From: Anaerolineaceae bacterium
Lineage (GTDB): Bacteria; Chloroflexota; Anaerolineae; Anaerolineales; Anaerolineaceae
Length of the DNA: 64,000 bases
Assembly (NCBI GenBank): GCA_029975475.1
Contig: JARKPB010000003.1
Location: 124,001-188,000 of the forward strand
Direction: 5' to 3'
A program made the position numbers and the translations under genes. Positions 44,398 through 50,827 of the stretch are shown piece after piece (position 1 is the stretch's first letter; each line of letters starts with the position of its first letter). Below the pieces are notes generated by a model, which was not told where the DNA came from, did no database searches, and saw nothing but the letters and a program-made list of their open reading frames with translations.

Positions 44398-45381
44398 TTG
44401 AACCGCTCTCACCTCTTCATCCTGTTGATGCTGCTATTTTTGTTAACCGCCTGCGCTGCCCCGGGCGAAACGCGGCCCGCGGCAACCGGGATTGCCCTTC
44501 AATCCAGCCCGACCCCCTCGCCAGCCAGCCCAACCTCAACCGGGGTTCCCGCGGTTCCCGCGGTCCCTGCGGACCCGCAGGCTGCCCCGCCCGAGCCGAC
44601 CCCAACCCTGAGCCCGGACGCCTGGAAAGACCTGCCGGTGATTCCAGAAACGATCAGCCAACGCACCATTGAAATTTACCGGCGCGGTCTGGAACTGGGC
44701 AACAACCCGCACGCCTTTTCAAAAGTCGGCGACAGCAACAGCACGCTGCCGGAATTTCTCGGCGATTTTGACCGTCCGCGCGCCTACCGCCTGGGCGATT
44801 ACGCGTACCTTCAACCGGCGGTAGACCATTTTTCCGGCTATTGGAGCCGCGGGAGCATGGCGGTCAAGATCGGGATGAGCACCAACGGCGTGCTTTCGCC
44901 GTTATGGGCAGACTGGCGGGAATGCAAAGCCAATGAAAGCCCGCTGGAATGCGAACTGCGGATCAACAAACCGGCCTTCGTCCTGGTTGGTCTGGGCACC
45001 AACGACGCCTACGACGTGCGCACGGAACCGATCGAAGAGCGCATGCGCAAAGTAATCGAGATCATCATCGCGCACGGCAGCATTCCGATTATGACCACCA
45101 AGGTGGACAACCTGGAAGGCGACCACACCATCAACCGGATGATTGCCCGGCTGGCTTACGAATATGACATTCCGCTTTACAATCTCTGGGCGGCCATGCA
45201 ACCTTTACCCAAACAGGGGCTGGAAACAGCTTTCCATTACACCTCTGGAGAAATCGGCCGGTGTGAATTTGACGATCCCCAGAATCTACAATACGGGTGG
45301 ACCATCCGCAACCTGACCGCCCTGCAAACCCTGGACGCAGTCTGGCGCGGCGTTACCGGCCAGCCGCCCGCCAGACCCTGA
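44398..45381 (+). CDS. SGNH/GDSL-type hydrolase lipoprotein of the acyl-transfer cluster
   Basis: 327 residues from the TTG at 44398, which follows AGGA; the TTG at 44365 is inside the promoter. The signal peptide ends in LTAC (Cys19), then a Ser/Pro/Thr linker (25-75). The hydrolase block I reads KVGDSNST (Gly-Asp-Ser), block III VGLGTNDAYD, and block II GMSTNG. The normal DxxH of block V is not clear, so its activity is uncertain. It starts the operon with the carrier protein 16 bases on. It may act outside the cell to move or remove the acyl group. Confidence 0.8.
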   Translation: MNRSHLFILLMLLFLLTACAAPGETRPAATGIALQSSPTPSPASPTSTGVPAVPAVPADPQAAPPEPTPTLSPDAWKDLPVIPETISQRTIEIYRRGLELGNNPHAFSKVGDSNSTLPEFLGDFDRPRAYRLGDYAYLQPAVDHFSGYWSRGSMAVKIGMSTNGVLSPLWADWRECKANESPLECELRINKPAFVLVGLGTNDAYDVRTEPIEERMRKVIEIIIAHGSIPIMTTKVDNLEGDHTINRMIARLAYEYDIPLYNLWAAMQPLPKQGLETAFHYTSGEIGRCEFDDPQNLQYGWTIRNLTALQTLDAVWRGVTGQPPARP

Positions 45382-45396
45382 TCCAAAGAGGACCGC

Positions 45397-45645
45397 ATGA
45401 AAGACACCCTCACCACGCTCTCCGATTACATTTGTAATGTCCTGATCAAGCAGCCCGGCCGCAGCCTGAGCGCCGCGGATGTTTTGCTTACTTCCGGGCT
45501 GATCGATTCGTTTCATCTGGTGGACCTGGCGACTTTCGTTGAAGACACCTTTGGAATCTTAATTGCCGATTACGAATTGACCCCCGCCACATTTGACACC
45601 CTCGGCCAGCTGGTCGAGTTAATCGAAACCCGCCAGGCTCGATGA
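45397..45645 (+). CDS. Acyl carrier protein (DltC-like part)
   Basis: 82 residues of the acyl carrier fold: four short helices with the phosphopantetheine site in SGLIDSFHLVDL, Ser38. The pI is low, as in carriers. It lies between a hydrolase lipoprotein and an adenylating ligase, and its stop overlaps the ligase start (ATGA at 45642). The carrier would take the acyl group from the ligase and pass it to the membrane-bound O-acyltransferase encoded on the opposite strand. Confidence 0.9.
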   Translation: MKDTLTTLSDYICNVLIKQPGRSLSAADVLLTSGLIDSFHLVDLATFVEDTFGILIADYELTPATFDTLGQLVELIETRQAR

Positions 45646-47327
45646 AACCGCGCACCCTGCCCCAGCTGTTTCTGCAAGATGCGCCTGCGCAGACAAAAAC
45701 CGCGGCCCTGACTCTGCTGCGGGCCGGCCAACCCGATCTGGCCCTGAACCGCGCCGACCTGATCAGCGGCGCCAGCGATTTTACCCGCGCTTACCACCGC
45801 GCCGGACTTCATCCCGGCGATGTGATCATCTTGATCTTTCAACACAGCCTTGATCTGACCCTGGCTTACTGGGGGGCGATCCTTTACGGGCTGGTGCCGT
45901 CCATCATGCCGTATTTGACCGAAAAGCTGCTGCCGGACCGCTACCGCGCGGACCTGGCGGCGCTGGTCGCGGTTACCCGGCCTCAGGCAGTGATCACCTA
46001 CCCCGAATTTGAAAGCGAGGTGCTCGCCGCCCTGCCTGAGGGCGGTTCTGTCCGGGTTGTGCTGCACAGCGGTCAGGTTGAACGCGGCGGGGGTCCCGCA
46101 TCCGACCTGTTTTTCGGACTGCAGCGCCAGCCCGAGGATATCGTCCTGCTGCAGCACTCTTCCGGTACCACCGGTCTGCAGAAGGGGGTAGCCCTCTCGC
46201 ATCAGGCCGTCCTCAACCAGCTGGAAGCGTACACCCGCGCCTTACGGCTGAACAAGGAGGATGTGATCGTATCCTGGCTGCCGTTATATCATGATATGGG
46301 TCTGATCGCCGGCTATCTGATGCCGCTCTTGACCGCCACACCGCTGGTGCTGCTGTCGCCTTTTGAATGGGTACGCGCGCCGTACCGTTTGATGCAGGCC
46401 GTCAGCAAATTCCGCGGCACGTTAACCTGGCTGCCCAATTTCGCTTACCGCTTCTGCGCCTCCAAGATTCGCGACCGCGACCTGGAGGGTGTGGATCTGT
46501 CCTCGTGGCGCGCGGTGATCAACTGCTCCGAGCCGGTGCGCGCTGACAGCCACGCAATCTTTGCCGAACGTTTTGCCCCTTACGGTTTTAATCCGCGCGC
46601 GCTGTGCGCCAGTTATGCCATGGCTGAGAATGTGTTTGCCGTGACCCAGGGCGGTCTGGACGCCCCGCTGACGCTGGATGAGATTGACCGCGATGCCTTT
46701 CAGGTGGAACGGGTCGCCCGGCCCGCTGTTCCCGGCCGCCCCACCCTGATAATGGTCTCGAACGGCCGGCCCATCGAGGGTACCGAGGTCAAGGTGGTGG
46801 ATAATGAAGGCCGCACGCTGGCCGAGCGTCAGGTTGGCGAGATCGCTCTGCGCAGCAATTGCATGCTCAGCGAATACTATCACCGCCCGGATGAGACCGC
46901 CAAAGCCTTTCGCGACGGCTGGTATCTCACCGGTGATCTGGGCTACCTGGCAAACGGTGAACTGTTTGTCTCAGGACGCAAGAAAGACATCATTATTGTG
47001 GGCGGGAAGAATATCCACCCCCAGGACCTGGAGTTGCTGGCGATGGAAGCCGAAGGAGTCCACCCGGGGCGGGTCAGCGCGTTCGGCATTTATAACGAGG
47101 ATCTGGGCACTGAAGAGGTGGTCATTGCTGCTGAAGTTGACGTGCCAGAAGGCCCGCGGCGCGAAGAGATCGCCCGCCAGGTGGCCGCCCACATCGCCCG
47201 CGGCTCAGCCGTCAGCGTGCGCGAAGTTTATCTGGTCTCCCCGCCCTGGCTGATCAAGACCTCCAGCGGCAAGACCGCCCGTCTGGCGAACCGCGAAAAA
47301 TACCTGAAAGAAAAGGGGTTGTTATAA
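45642..47327 (+). CDS. FAAL-like acyl-AMP ligase
   Basis: 561 residues, ANL superfamily. ATP loop LLQHSSGTTGLQKGVALSH, the substrate-helix block SWLPLYHDMGLIAGYL (the FAAL class hallmark), LTWLPNFAYRFC, and the hinge YLTGDLGYLANGELFVSGRKKD followed by GGKNIHPQDLE; near the end KTSSGKTARL carries the catalytic Lys. It adenylates a carboxylic acid, probably a fatty acid, and loads the carrier encoded just upstream. DltA-type D-alanine specificity is not supported by the YHDMGL block, though not excluded. Confidence 0.88.
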   Translation: MKPRTLPQLFLQDAPAQTKTAALTLLRAGQPDLALNRADLISGASDFTRAYHRAGLHPGDVIILIFQHSLDLTLAYWGAILYGLVPSIMPYLTEKLLPDRYRADLAALVAVTRPQAVITYPEFESEVLAALPEGGSVRVVLHSGQVERGGGPASDLFFGLQRQPEDIVLLQHSSGTTGLQKGVALSHQAVLNQLEAYTRALRLNKEDVIVSWLPLYHDMGLIAGYLMPLLTATPLVLLSPFEWVRAPYRLMQAVSKFRGTLTWLPNFAYRFCASKIRDRDLEGVDLSSWRAVINCSEPVRADSHAIFAERFAPYGFNPRALCASYAMAENVFAVTQGGLDAPLTLDEIDRDAFQVERVARPAVPGRPTLIMVSNGRPIEGTEVKVVDNEGRTLAERQVGEIALRSNCMLSEYYHRPDETAKAFRDGWYLTGDLGYLANGELFVSGRKKDIIIVGGKNIHPQDLELLAMEAEGVHPGRVSAFGIYNEDLGTEEVVIAAEVDVPEGPRREEIARQVAAHIARGSAVSVREVYLVSPPWLIKTSSGKTARLANREKYLKEKGLL

Positions 47328-47761
47328 GCGCCGTCTGAGGGCCGCCGCCAGCGCGGACAGCAGCTCCGCGTCCCGCTGCGGGTCAAAGCTGCGCTCGCGC
47401 AGGTCTGGCGGGTACGCCCAGGGATGGTTTTGACGGTAGATGTCCGGCTCACTGGCAAAGCGCGGCACGATGCGTGCAGGTACGGGACAGTGTTACCCAT
47501 CACCGCATAATTCATGCGGAACGCCCCGGTCACTTCCATAATCGCATCCCCCACCAGGATCATATCCAGTAAAAAACGCGCCCTGGCTTCGGCAGTCAGG
47601 TCGTTCAGGCCGGCCACCAGCGGGTTGGCCAGCAGGATGGAATAACCGCTCAGGTTATTCATATCGCACAGCACCGCCCAGCCGGAGGGCAGCCGCCCAA
47701 ACAGGCCAGGGTGTGCCCCGCCGCGCGCCAGCGCCAGGCATTTACAACTGTGTGGCTCATG
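47322..47761 (-). pseudogene. Frameshifted HIT-domain hydrolase
   Basis: A HIT-type hydrolase reads LPSGWAVLCDMNNLSGYSIL, then MGNTVPYLHA, where the frame breaks. Four bases are missing just where the HxHxx motif (LHAHIVPR) should be; the second half continues one frame over as IVPRFASEPDIYRQNHPWAY to a TAA at 47324-47322. The ATG with a ribosome site (47761) is also out of frame with the body. Two breaks suggest a decayed gene, unless there is an assembly error. It ends 6 bases inside the convergent ligase gene. Confidence 0.8.
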
Positions 47762-47775
47762 ATTCCTCGAAATCG

Positions 47776-48891
47776 TCAGGGTTTCTGGCAACTGCCCGCC
47801 AGGGCATTTTCGTAGATGAATTCCGCGAAGAGGCGCTCCCCGACCGCGTCCAGATGAATCGCCGTATTGGTAAAATGCTCCTGCGGCACGCGGTCCCAGG
47901 CATCCAGGCAGGTCCAACCGTTGGCCTGGCAGGTCTGCGCCAGCGCCGCCCGGTACTGATCATAGGCCCAGCGGGGGTAATAAAAGTTGTAGCGCACATT
48001 ACTGTTTTGACCCTGGCTGACCAGGATTGGCTCATTGATCAAAATCAGCGGGGTTCCGCCAGCCGCAGCCCTTCCAGCTGACAGCAGCTCAAACGCCATC
48101 TGGTCCAGCGGCAGAGCGGGCGGCTGCCAGTCATGAAACGAAAGATCATCTTCCAGATCGCGGGCCGCAGGCTGAAAAGTTTGCGAATCGTCCTGGTCAA
48201 TCCCGGTGGCTGCCCAGGCAAAACCGTACAGCTGCAGGCGCAGCCAGTCCGCCGCCGGTCGGCGCCGGGCGATCAGCGTGCGCTGCCAGAAGGACGGTGG
48301 GGTAAGAGAATCTAACGTCAGGGGCAGGTTGTAATCGCGCGCCAGCGCGCCCAGCCGGGCAGTGTTGTTGGCGGCCAGCGGCGATTCCAGCTGCCGGCCG
48401 CGCGGAAAGGATTCCAGGGTCAGGGGCCAGAGGATCAAATCCGGCTGATAACGCATTCCCTCGCGCAAAATCATCAGGTCCTTGGCCAGCGACAGGGTGG
48501 GATAACCCAGGTTGTAAAAGCGCGCCGGCTTCCCGCTGCATAACAAATGAAGAGCGTTTAACTGCCCGCTCAGCGTTTCTTCCGGGCGCAAAAGCGAGCC
48601 CCAGATCGAAGAATCACCCAGGATAAGTACGCGAAACTCGCTGCCCGGCACGCCCGCCCCGTCCAGTTCGTGGGAGGCGAACATGGCGCCCAGGTCATAC
48701 AGGCTCAGATTGTACGCCGCGGCCGGATTTTCACCGTAAGGGAAGCGCGCCCTACCCGGGACCAGCCAGTTATAAATCCCGAAAGGAGCTTCGAAGGGAC
48801 CGATCGCTGCCAGGAGGAGGTTCAGAGCCGCAAAAAGCAAGATGCCCTTGGCCAGCGCGCGCGCCCAGTTCAGGGAATTGCGTTTTTCCAT
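47776..48891 (-). CDS. SGNH-fold, membrane-anchored acyl transfer protein (DltD/AlgX-like)
   Basis: 371 residues from the ATG at 48891, behind GGGAGGTTGAG; the frame upstream overlaps the MBOAT gene. An N-terminal signal-anchor helix (13-30) puts the body outside. GDS block LILGDSSIWG with Ser94, NLGYPTLSLAKD (block II Gly), and a late AIHLDAVG (His346) match SGNH esterases that work with MBOAT proteins. It would take the acyl group from the MBOAT/peptide relay and pass it to an outer polymer. It is 2 bases after the MBOAT stop. Confidence 0.82.
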   Translation of the reverse strand: MEKRNSLNWARALAKGILLFAALNLLLAAIGPFEAPFGIYNWLVPGRARFPYGENPAAAYNLSLYDLGAMFASHELDGAGVPGSEFRVLILGDSSIWGSLLRPEETLSGQLNALHLLCSGKPARFYNLGYPTLSLAKDLMILREGMRYQPDLILWPLTLESFPRGRQLESPLAANNTARLGALARDYNLPLTLDSLTPPSFWQRTLIARRRPAADWLRLQLYGFAWAATGIDQDDSQTFQPAARDLEDDLSFHDWQPPALPLDQMAFELLSAGRAAAGGTPLILINEPILVSQGQNSNVRYNFYYPRWAYDQYRAALAQTCQANGWTCLDAWDRVPQEHFTNTAIHLDAVGERLFAEFIYENALAGSCQKP

Positions 48892-48892
48892 C

Positions 48893-50317
48893 TCAACCTC
48901 CCCAGCCAAACAGCCCGAGCAGCACCCGCCCGGCCTGACCCGCATCCGGAAGCAGGAACCACAACCACCCCAGACTGACGTAGATAAAGGTCAGCAGGGT
49001 GCTGAAAACGGTAACCGCCCGGTTCAATCCTGCCCGCGCGGAAAGATCCGGCAGCCTGGGTTTAACCTGCTCGTTCCAGCGGTTATTGATGAAAAGCCCG
49101 AACGCATGCCACAAGCCCCAGAGGACAAAATTGAGGGCGATGCCGTGCCACAGGCCGATCAAAATCATCGTGGCGGTCTGCAGGCTAAAGACGACCAGCG
49201 CCTGCGGCAGCCGCGGCAGACGGCGCTTTAACCAGCGCGTCAGCGGGTTGAAAAAATACGCCCGAAACCACTGGGTCAGGGTTATATGCCAGTTGTTCCA
49301 GAACTGAATTAGATTGGGTTTGCTGTACGGCCGATTGAAGTTTTCCGGCAGGCGAATGCCGGCCAGCAGCCCTAAACCAATCGCCAGATCGGTGTAACCG
49401 CTAAAATCCAGGTAAATTTGAAAGCTATACGCAACCAATCCCAGCCACAACCAGCCAGGCGCCTGGATCTGCGCGGCCAGGGTTGGGCTGAGAGCAACCA
49501 GCGCCAGCGCATCAGCGAGCACGAACTTACGGGCCAGCCCGGAAAGCAGGCGCGGCAGGGCTTTTTCGAGATCGCCCTTCAAGCTTCCCAGCGGCGCGCG
49601 CAGGTCGCTGACAAAGCGCTCCAGGCGGTCAATTGGTCCAGCCGTGTAAGCCGGGAAAAAGAAGAGATAGACCAGATATTCCTGCAGACTGAAAGTGTGC
49701 AGCCGCCCGGCCTGCCGGTCGCGAATGGTGTGGATCAACCGAAATGCCAGATAAGAAAAACCCAGCCAGCGCAGGTCAAGCGCGGAAGCCAGGTGAACCG
49801 GTTGCTCGGTCAGCAGCCGCAAACCGCCTGAAACCCAGGCGGTCAAAGGCGGATACTTCAGCAAAACAAATAAAACCAGCAGCAGCGTCAGAGCCCCGGC
49901 ACGGGCAACCCGGCCCGGCAGCCGCGCCGCCAGCAGCACAACCAGCGCCAGCAAGCCGATCCCGGCCGCGATTTGCCCGAGCGGCGGCGGGCGGTGAGCG
50001 CCTAACCAGTCTGGCAGGGGTACAAAGCGCAGCAACCCCAGCCCCAGCGTCAGGCCGAGAACCAGCGCCAGCGCGGGCAATTGATCGCGCCAGCACCGCC
50101 CGGCAGGATCGACGGTCGCCACCCAGGAAAGGACCGCCAGGCCAAGCGCAGCCAGCGGCAGCCAGGTATCCATCCCGCGCAGGGCAGTGGCAGGCTGCAA
50201 CCAGAAGATCGCCAGCACGCTCAGGCCAAGCAGAAACCAGCCGCGGGCTCGCCCACCGGCCGCCGTGCGCCACAACAGCGCCAGCCCTAAGAAGACGGCG
50301 ACTTCAACCAGCGACAC
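48893..50317 (-). CDS. MBOAT family O-acyltransferase (DltB/AlgI-like)
   Basis: 474 residues, about 11 membrane helices, from a GTG at 50317. The MBOAT core reads YLDFSGYTDLAIGLG, PENFNRPYSKPNLIQFWN, WHITLTQWFRAYFF, and GLWHGIALNFVLWG with the catalytic His391. The central helices form a pore that passes an acyl group from a cytoplasmic carrier to an acceptor outside. Its neighbours are a one-helix peptide with a Tyr tail and a GDS-type protein, as in the dlt system. Confidence 0.93.
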   Translation of the reverse strand: MSLVEVAVFLGLALLWRTAAGGRARGWFLLGLSVLAIFWLQPATALRGMDTWLPLAALGLAVLSWVATVDPAGRCWRDQLPALALVLGLTLGLGLLRFVPLPDWLGAHRPPPLGQIAAGIGLLALVVLLAARLPGRVARAGALTLLLVLFVLLKYPPLTAWVSGGLRLLTEQPVHLASALDLRWLGFSYLAFRLIHTIRDRQAGRLHTFSLQEYLVYLFFFPAYTAGPIDRLERFVSDLRAPLGSLKGDLEKALPRLLSGLARKFVLADALALVALSPTLAAQIQAPGWLWLGLVAYSFQIYLDFSGYTDLAIGLGLLAGIRLPENFNRPYSKPNLIQFWNNWHITLTQWFRAYFFNPLTRWLKRRLPRLPQALVVFSLQTATMILIGLWHGIALNFVLWGLWHAFGLFINNRWNEQVKPRLPDLSARAGLNRAVTVFSTLLTFIYVSLGWLWFLLPDAGQAGRVLLGLFGWGG

Positions 50318-50318
50318 C

Positions 50319-50444
50319 CTAAAAACCCTGGTAGATCCACAGCGGAGCCGTCTCCGCGCTCATCACGGTCAGCAGCACGAGCAGCAGGCAGATGATGACT
50401 GCCAGCAGGTTCTCGCGGGATAAGACGCGCCGAAGAAGGTTCAT
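50319..50444 (-). CDS. DltX-like one-helix peptide with C-terminal Ile-Tyr-x-x-Phe
   Basis: 41 residues, too small for most gene finders. The ATG at 50444 overlaps the stop of the upstream lipoprotein gene (ATGA); the TAG lies at 50321-50319, and the next gene's GTG starts just inside. One membrane helix (12-29) is followed by ETAPLWIYQGF: the last residues fit the FxYxxF-type tail of DltX, whose Tyr (here Tyr38) is the reported acyl carrier. The codons and the tight coupling on both sides support it being real. Confidence 0.85.
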   Translation of the reverse strand: MNLLRRVLSRENLLAVIICLLLVLLTVMSAETAPLWIYQGF

Positions 50445-50827
50445 CGGTACCCGCACATGCGCCAGTCGCCGCCTTCTTTCACCAGCTGGAGGGTGCGGGC
50501 GCTTAAATCAAACTCGGCTTCTTCATTCCCGTAAGTGGCAAAAATCTTTCCCTGACAGCTTACCAGAGCGGTCTCCCCGTCTGTGCCGCTCTGGGCGCAG
50601 GTCAGGTTTTCCAGACGCGGGGTGACCGCCTGGAAGGAAGCCACTTCCATCTGCGCCGATTCGACCCACTCCGCGCAGGAAAGGGCGGCGATTTGCTCTT
50701 TATCCTGCGCAACCAGGGCTTTGAGATACGCTTCCGCCGCTTTTCCGGCCGGGTCCTGGGGGCCGCAGCCCGCCAGCAGCCCGGCGAGCAATCCGAGCGT
50801 TATCAACTTCCATACATTTCGAAGCAT
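50441..50827 (-). CDS. Small lipoprotein of unknown function, first gene of the MBOAT operon
   Basis: 128 residues. The ATG at 50827 follows GGAGG. The signal peptide ends in LLAGC (Cys21). The mature part (helix AAEAYLKALVAQDKEQIAAL, then beta strands with CAQSG, CQGK, and C near the end) resembles NTF2-like lipoproteins in secondary pattern only. Three later Cys could form disulfides. It is coupled to the DltX-like gene, so it probably belongs to the same envelope process; its role is unknown. Confidence 0.75.
   Translation of the reverse strand: MLRNVWKLITLGLLAGLLAGCGPQDPAGKAAEAYLKALVAQDKEQIAALSCAEWVESAQMEVASFQAVTPRLENLTCAQSGTDGETALVSCQGKIFATYGNEEAEFDLSARTLQLVKEGGDWRMCGYR

Follow-up and report, generated by a model that had tools for sequence, protein, structure and literature searches.

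The window, that is, the whole 64,000-nucleotide stretch analysed here, comes from the genome of an Anaerolineaceae bacterium (contig JARKPB010000003.1, positions 124,001 to 188,000). At positions 44398-50827 it encodes a seven-gene cassette in which the parts of a Dlt operon can be recognised: a ligase, a carrier protein, a membrane-bound O-acyltransferase (MBOAT), a membrane-anchored SGNH protein and a one-helix microprotein, accompanied by two lipoproteins. We consider it likely that the cassette is a carrier-dependent MBOAT-SGNH acylation machine, built like Dlt and loaded by an enzyme of the fatty acyl-AMP ligase (FAAL) type. The genes are listed below with the roles that we propose.

44398..45381, plus strand: lipoprotein with an SGNH/GDSL fold, putative second SGNH partner; TTG start, lipobox LTAC
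45397..45645, plus strand: acyl carrier protein, DltC role; D37-S38 in 22/22 aligned sequences
45642..47327, plus strand: FAAL-type acyl-AMP ligase, DltA role
47322..47779, minus strand: small HIT-like gene between the modules, frame broken; upper bound not fixed
47776..48891, minus strand: membrane-anchored SGNH protein, DltD role; helix at residues 3-32 of the model, G94-D95-S96 and H348
48893..50317, minus strand: DltB-like MBOAT without a C-terminal shuttle motif; GTG start, H344 and H391
50319..50444, minus strand: one-helix acyl-shuttle microprotein of 41 residues, DltX role; C-terminus APLWIYQGF
50441..50827, minus strand: SnoaL-like lipoprotein, usual first gene of the cassette; lipobox LAGC

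All seven cassette genes are open frames without an internal stop, as checked on the open reading frames (ORFs) of the window. An earlier, sequence-only reading had described the carrier, the FAAL-like ligase, the MBOAT, the anchored GDS-type protein and the WIYQGF peptide, and these five are indeed intact genes at the positions it gave. Overlaps of 4 bases join the carrier to the ligase gene and the SnoaL-like to the microprotein gene. Gaps of a single base separate the microprotein from the MBOAT gene and the latter from the anchored SGNH gene, whose ATG lies 1 base past the MBOAT stop, while 15 bases lie between the SGNH lipoprotein and the carrier. The same reading counted two extra lipoproteins. 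These are linked to the modules as it said, but the one at 44398 is a second SGNH-fold protein and the one at 50441 is SnoaL-like. It also saw two convergent operons meeting at 47322-47327. Opposing stops do overlap there, but the minus-strand frame that ends at 47322 is that of the separate HIT-like gene.

We analysed the co-occurrence of these genes in the window's genome and 60 relatives (n = 61). The MBOAT query matched 42 of the 61 genomes at E ≤ 1e-20 and 34 at E ≤ 1e-80. We counted the 34 as MBOAT-positive because the next match after 2e-91 was only 2e-46. The anchored SGNH protein (E ≤ 1e-30) was found in exactly these 34 genomes. Twenty-nine of them also had the ligase (E ≤ 1e-100), against 1 of the 27 others (G026). 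Both associations were significant (Fisher exact test, 6e-18 for MBOAT and anchored SGNH, 4e-11 for MBOAT and ligase, values that are uncorrected for kinship between genomes). Co-occurrence was the test that the sequence-only reading had set for its proposal, and the two modules passed it.

The surroundings of 34 MBOAT loci from 33 other genomes (L031-L064), read by tblastn and ORF matching, revealed a usual order on one strand: SnoaL-like lipoprotein, microprotein, MBOAT, anchored SGNH protein, one or two SGNH lipoproteins, carrier and ligase. MBOAT and ligase share a contig in 20 of the 29 genomes that have both, including the window's, and in 16 of the 29 the ligase follows the MBOAT on the same strand, no more than 7 kb downstream. 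Three genomes have them on opposite strands (the window's, G025 and G044), and in G007 the ligase is 12 kb away. The split, convergent layout is thus limited to the window and a few genomes, and since the genes are collinear in 16/29 genomes we regard it as a local rearrangement of a common cassette. One could suppose instead that two unrelated operons converge here by chance, as the opposite strands and the intervening gene in the window might suggest. The co-occurrence and the collinear order refute this chance neighbourhood, which we hold to be vanishingly improbable. In eleven genomes the ligase is either more than 10 kb from the MBOAT or on a different contig. Examination of ten such loci (L193-L202; G059 was left out) showed a carrier of the same kind within about 3 kb of the ligase in all ten, and a match to the SGNH lipoprotein nearby in seven.

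The cassette has a restricted distribution. Among 400 genomes sampled across the phylum, MBOAT matches (E ≤ 1e-60) occurred in 34, all from the window's own class. A scan of named genomes, which was limited by a search pattern and is not exhaustive, gave 588 loci. Among the best 80 of these, the first 14 were Chloroflexota and near full length except for one cut by a contig end, and the remaining 66 were partial matches with 31-39% identity. From the named records we infer that the host class is Anaerolineae. Three contigs, to judge by their length, were drawn from two collections and appear twice (L044/L074, L048/L077 and L063/L082). One of these loci, L074, belongs to the cultured Leptolinea tardivitalis YMTK-2 and has the run of SnoaL-like, peptide and MBOAT genes. 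The genome that probably corresponds to it, G011, carries the anchored SGNH protein, and the FAAL on a different contig. The cassette looks like a variant of the Dlt-type machine spread over one class. As a separate observation, a 212 kb plasmid of Leptolinea sp. HRD-7 (AP024711.1) has the positions of SnoaL-like gene, shuttle peptide and MBOAT filled by annotated hypothetical proteins (L203 8984-10963). The peptide end and the MBOAT were checked there, and the first gene was assigned by position alone.

The microprotein matches no Pfam or NCBIfam model. It is nevertheless encoded in 31 of the 34 relatives' loci, and the remaining three (L061-L063) are cut by a contig end inside the MBOAT gene. 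We inspected 50 loci in all, namely these 34, the 14 named Chloroflexota, the Leptolinea plasmid and the window, and found the peptide in 43. Of the seven loci in which it was missed, four are contig-cut, L072 is interrupted by a stretch of N in mid-gene, and the other two are L075 and L078. All but one of the 43 peptides end in WIYQGF, the exception having WIYSGF. When the 43 loci were compared in all 903 pairs, differences in the six motif codons occurred at rates of 0.008, 0.008 and 0.42 at first, second and third codon positions. Hence, the peptide is conserved more than expected by chance. The acyl-shuttle hexapeptide of DltX and PatA is FXYXXF, according to the available text of PMC12148441, and WIYQGF fits it except at the first position. 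The Latilactobacillus DltX used for comparison ends in FIYNEF.

The MBOAT has a clear family assignment (Pfam, E 5e-20). Its score against the DltB model TIGR04091 is 203 bits, below the cut-off of 375, and a comparison with PDB sequences at E ≤ 0.01 retrieved DltB alone, as two distinct sequences (E 3e-42). H344 and H391 are present in 32/32 aligned sequences and line up with H289 and H336 of DltB, residues named in the accessible part of PMC11035591. These matches and aligned histidines, the shuttle hexapeptide and the overlapping carrier and ligase genes fit the assignment of the A, B, C, D and X roles made by the sequence-only reading. A C-terminal shuttle motif was found in none of 46 Anaerolineae-type MBOATs, in none of 5 DltBs and in 62 of 65 further MBOATs taken from a genome scan. 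We collected 123 MBOATs and inferred a quick tree of 68 rows and a careful tree of 55, hand-chosen for spread (the long-branch row L189 was omitted from the latter). A branch supported at 99/95 in the 55-row tree, and with a Shimodaira-Hasegawa-like approximate likelihood ratio test (SH-aLRT) value of 96 in the 68-row tree, has the Anaerolineae-type MBOATs and DltB together on one side. Phylogenetically, then, the MBOAT is placed with DltB, apart from the MBOATs that carry a fused motif. A placement of the fused, FAAL-linked MBOATs of L118 and L191 beside the group of DltB and Anaerolineae had support of 80/86, and we did not accept it as established.

Another split shuttle occurs outside Bacillota and Chloroflexota. 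In a Candidatus Chisholmbacteria locus (L088 2372-3657), a small membrane peptide, encoded separately and ending in EFIYVDF, comes after an MBOAT that lacks a fused motif.

The ligase belongs to the AMP-binding family (Pfam, E 7e-43). Against NCBIfam it scores highest with a fatty acyl-AMP ligase model (357 bits), followed by PRK07768, a model named CoA ligase (333 bits). The curated cut-off of the first is 600, and therefore we call the enzyme FAAL-type and do not file it as a named FAAL. Among solved structures, the fatty acyl-adenylate ligase 3pbk matches its sequence best. The first 18 ranks contain, besides FadD32, FadD23 and FadD28, some entries under the names polyketide synthase, acyl-CoA synthase, McyG and amino acid adenylation domain, and a 4-coumarate CoA ligase follows at rank 19. 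By these sequence matches, the ligase is closer to FAALs than to CoA ligases. The best 25 of its 105 model matches end at 101 bits, so that no DltA model can reach its cut-off (476 and 560). The Pfam and NCBIfam matches of the carrier are all below their cut-offs, including that of the DltC model TIGR01688 (15.6 bits against 52.35). The window's genome has two genes of the acyl carrier protein (ACP) synthase family.

These results bear on a rival explanation, that this is an ordinary, merely diverged Dlt system that D-alanylates teichoic acid. In its favour are the MBOAT, whose nearest relative and neighbour on the tree is DltB, and the presence of a carrier and a DltX-like peptide. The ligase points elsewhere, as its best models are fatty acyl-AMP ligases and the DltA cut-offs are out of its reach, and the cut-offs of the DltB and DltC models are not attained either. 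The window's genome gave no match to the DltD family (PF04914) at E ≤ 0.001, where B. subtilis and L. lactis were positive. Nor did it give a match to the glycerophosphotransferase family PF04464, for which B. subtilis was positive (lipoteichoic acid synthase was not searched for). Furthermore, a second cluster of the same genome, described below, has a DltA-like adenylation enzyme. No cassette protein passes a curated Dlt cut-off (DltA, DltB, DltC or DltD models), and for this reason we do not file the cassette as Dlt. Ordinary D-alanylation thus seems to us highly improbable.

The anchored SGNH protein is predicted to have an N-terminal helix followed by an SGNH fold (model with a predicted local distance difference test score, pLDDT, of 84). 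Its matches to GDSL-like Pfam domains are below cut-off. Among the structural matches listed, the best is CgnD (Z 16.6), and DltD matches with Z 14.2 over 279 aligned residues at a root-mean-square deviation of 5.5 and 9% identity. G94, D95, S96 and H348 are present in 25/25 sequences. The SGNH lipoprotein matches Pfam Lipase_GDSL_2 with E 2e-5, below cut-off, and the best 50 structural matches listed for its model (pLDDT 86) are all SGNH-fold, with Z 13.6-15.7. AlgJ and AlgX are absent from the 50 structural matches listed for each of the two models, and are not thereby excluded. The lipoprotein has two further cysteines in 25/25 sequences. Its residue 113 (window 44734-44736), at the nucleophile position, is Ser in the window and Cys in the 24 relatives aligned, which may define a Cys-SGNH subfamily. 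Some of these lipoproteins have a long C-terminal extension (L197 11607-13868, L194 3864-5894, L038 12715-14814 and L059 4767-6863), and a PD40 beta-propeller match exceeds its cut-off only in L197. The SnoaL-like domain of the 50441 lipoprotein is just above the model cut-off. The L054 locus has one open frame that holds both a SnoaL-like stretch (37% identity, E 2e-20) and the SGNH lipoprotein, and this ties the SnoaL-like lipoprotein to the role of the SGNH lipoprotein.

We can now propose how the machine would work, each chemical step being carried over from Dlt and PatAB. The ligase would adenylate a carboxylic acid, more likely a fatty or other non-amino acid than D-alanine, and, as its family suggests, load it onto the phosphopantetheine of the carrier. 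From the cytoplasm, the acyl-carrier would dock onto the DltB-like MBOAT. By analogy to DltB, DltX and PatA, the MBOAT would pass the acyl group to the tyrosine of the extracytoplasmic WIYQGF tail. The tyrosine ester would then hand the acyl group to the serine of the anchored SGNH protein. The latter, perhaps with both lipoproteins, would esterify a hydroxyl group on a glycan of the wall or surface.

The acid might also be small (acetate, propionate, lactate or similar), activated by a retuned FAAL-type ligase, in which case the function would resemble O-acetylation. The MBOAT-SGNH systems described in the available text of PMC12148441 move acetyl and D-alanyl groups, and the sequence tools used do not read the chain length of the acid. 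However, the best solved match of the ligase is the fatty acyl-AMP ligase 3pbk, and acetylation could use acetyl-CoA directly, without ligase and carrier. We regard a small acid as a somewhat unlikely, though serious, possibility.

The acceptor in the proposed machine is probably a wall or surface glycan, because SGNH proteins with LysM and SH3 domains occur among the relatives, because PF04464 had no match and because the related systems in PMC12148441, as far as its available text goes, act on envelope polymers. One SGNH protein, encoded on the opposite strand inside a cassette locus (L060:5835-7295), has both LysM and SH3 domains, and another, near a FAAL in L200, has an SH3 domain. Among the eight SGNH proteins scanned, which were chosen for length or layout, LysM was found in one and SH3 in two. 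Together with PD40, these domains hint weakly at the wall. Alternatively, the acceptor could be small, a glycolipid or peptide that is lipid-linked or secreted. The clustering of neighbours around the cassette loci gave no recurring gene pointing to a polymer, and FAALs supply lipid, polyketide and lipopeptide pathways (as described in the accessible part of PMC8460268), both of which would suit a small acceptor. Against it stand the envelope polymers targeted by the Tyr-motif MBOAT-SGNH systems and, as a weak hint at the wall, the domains of the L060 and L200 proteins. We judge a small acceptor unlikely.

Several observations weigh against the machine as proposed here, with its wall or surface acceptor. 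No shuttle peptide is recognisable at loci L075 and L078, although the upstream sequence there is ungapped, and the first place of the motif is Trp, where FXYXXF has Phe. The branches leading to DltB and to the Anaerolineae group are long, and therefore attraction between them is possible. L088 falls on the fused-motif side of the MBOAT tree, which means that splitting of the motif can happen repeatedly. Holding L088 with the Anaerolineae-type and DltB side, as a single family origin of all split MBOATs would require, gave a P value of 0.168 in the approximately unbiased test and was thus not rejected. Small SGNH esterases match the anchored SGNH protein as well in Z as DltD does. This protein also lacks an Asp at the canonical DxxH place, which is Ser or Thr in 25/25 sequences, with Asn or Asp one residue earlier. 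In the SGNH lipoprotein, the nucleophile place is Cys (GDC) in 24/25 sequences, the window alone having Ser (GDS), and Tyr replaces the block V His in 8/25. Its catalytic role is therefore doubtful, and the protein could be a modified partner or a structural one. The idea that all SGNH lipoproteins are active esterases is weakened by the same cysteine. Pfam does not name the SnoaL-like stretch of the L054 fusion. Finally, 5 of the 34 MBOAT genomes have no FAAL at E ≤ 1e-100 (G008, G013, G017, G036 and G049). Three of them, G049, G013 and G017, retain a carrier in the MBOAT stretch (L042 18241-18847; L059; L064), and G049 has two short FAAL pieces only.

The cassette combines traits of several known systems. 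It shares with Dlt of Bacillota (DltA, B, C, D and X) a ligase, a carrier, an MBOAT, an anchored SGNH protein and a separate one-helix microprotein with a Tyr hexapeptide. It differs from Dlt in the FAAL type of its ligase, in having WxYxGF instead of FxYxxF, and in having two SGNH proteins and a SnoaL-like lipoprotein. The acetylation systems PatA/PatB and AlgI/J/X also join an MBOAT, an SGNH protein and a Tyr motif (PMC12148441, available text), and the two SGNH proteins and accessory of the cassette recall AlgJ/AlgX/AlgF (PMC4148444, accessible part). However, in the cassette the motif is on a separate peptide, and ligase and carrier replace acyl-CoA. The FAAL-ACP pairs of polyketide, lipopeptide and mycobacterial lipid pathways have a similar ligase and a stand-alone carrier. 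In contrast to these, the carrier of the cassette adjoins a membrane acyltransferase, and the clustering of neighbours showed no synthase family recurring beside it.

In another set of parallels, the motif is fused to the MBOAT. A FAAL and an ACP lie beside an MBOAT in L118 and L189 (Acidobacteriota) and in L191 (Anaerolineae genome G004), with FAAL identities to the window's ligase of 49%, 34% and 39%, respectively. Unlike the cassette, these MBOATs carry the shuttle motif themselves: FLYFQF in L118, FIYQGF in L189 and FIYVQF/FVYVQF in L191. A scripted search of L118 found no separate microprotein (L189 and L191 were not searched for one). The clusters span about 6715-11875 in L118, 6222-9616 in L189 and 7514-16249 in L191, with SGNH-like proteins in L118 and L191. 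FAAL matches (E ≤ 1e-90) occurred in 9 of 119 Acidobacteriota genomes, and a clear MBOAT was nearby in two of the nine (L118 and L189); a weak MBOAT-like match in L186 was disregarded, and the L185 contig is short.

The available text of PMC12148441 describes non-Dlt MBOAT/SGNH pathways as having neither a carrier protein nor a DltX-like microprotein. Set against that account, the cassette has both, lies outside Bacillota and uses a different kind of ligase. Since fused-motif MBOATs also occur beside a carrier and a ligase, the type of donor and the layout of the motif seem to vary independently. The range of groups exported on a tyrosine ester may thus exceed acetyl and D-alanyl. More broadly, and only tentatively, we suggest that Anaerolineae, and some Acidobacteriota with the fused form, could transfer fatty acyl groups from a carrier through the membrane, as a tyrosine ester, to a wall or surface glycan outside, giving a lipidated polymer. 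Neither the carrier nor the separate shuttle peptide would then be confined to D-alanylation, and Dlt itself would be a specialised offshoot of a more ancient family of carrier-fed MBOAT machines. We found no published description of the cassette in the literature searched, mostly without subscription papers. The cassette also offers a way into the study of the Anaerolineae envelope.

The window's genome has a second carrier-fed MBOAT cluster, outside the window (L070 7776-13023; contig C13, about 382-387 kb). It consists of a DltA-like adenylation enzyme, a GNAT protein, a carrier, an MBOAT with a fused FIYMGF and, in the place of the SGNH protein, a protein of 365 residues without a Pfam assignment. 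The adenylation enzyme scores 331 bits against an amino-acid adenylation model, and 298 against the DltA model, whose cut-off is 476.

The HIT-like gene at 47322-47779 has its two halves in different frames, as in a pseudogene or an assembly error. Pfam matches neither half, and tblastn did not recover it. The first half has a single blastp relative, in L144 (39% identity over 83 residues, 2e-10), whose own Pfam HIT match is below cut-off (E 0.031). The HIT label is therefore a guess, and the gene probably stands outside the acylation machine. The additional neighbours that recur around cassette loci, grouped by clustering and named by eye, are an ATP-binding cassette (ABC) ATPase in 10 loci, response regulators in 6 loci and smaller sets.

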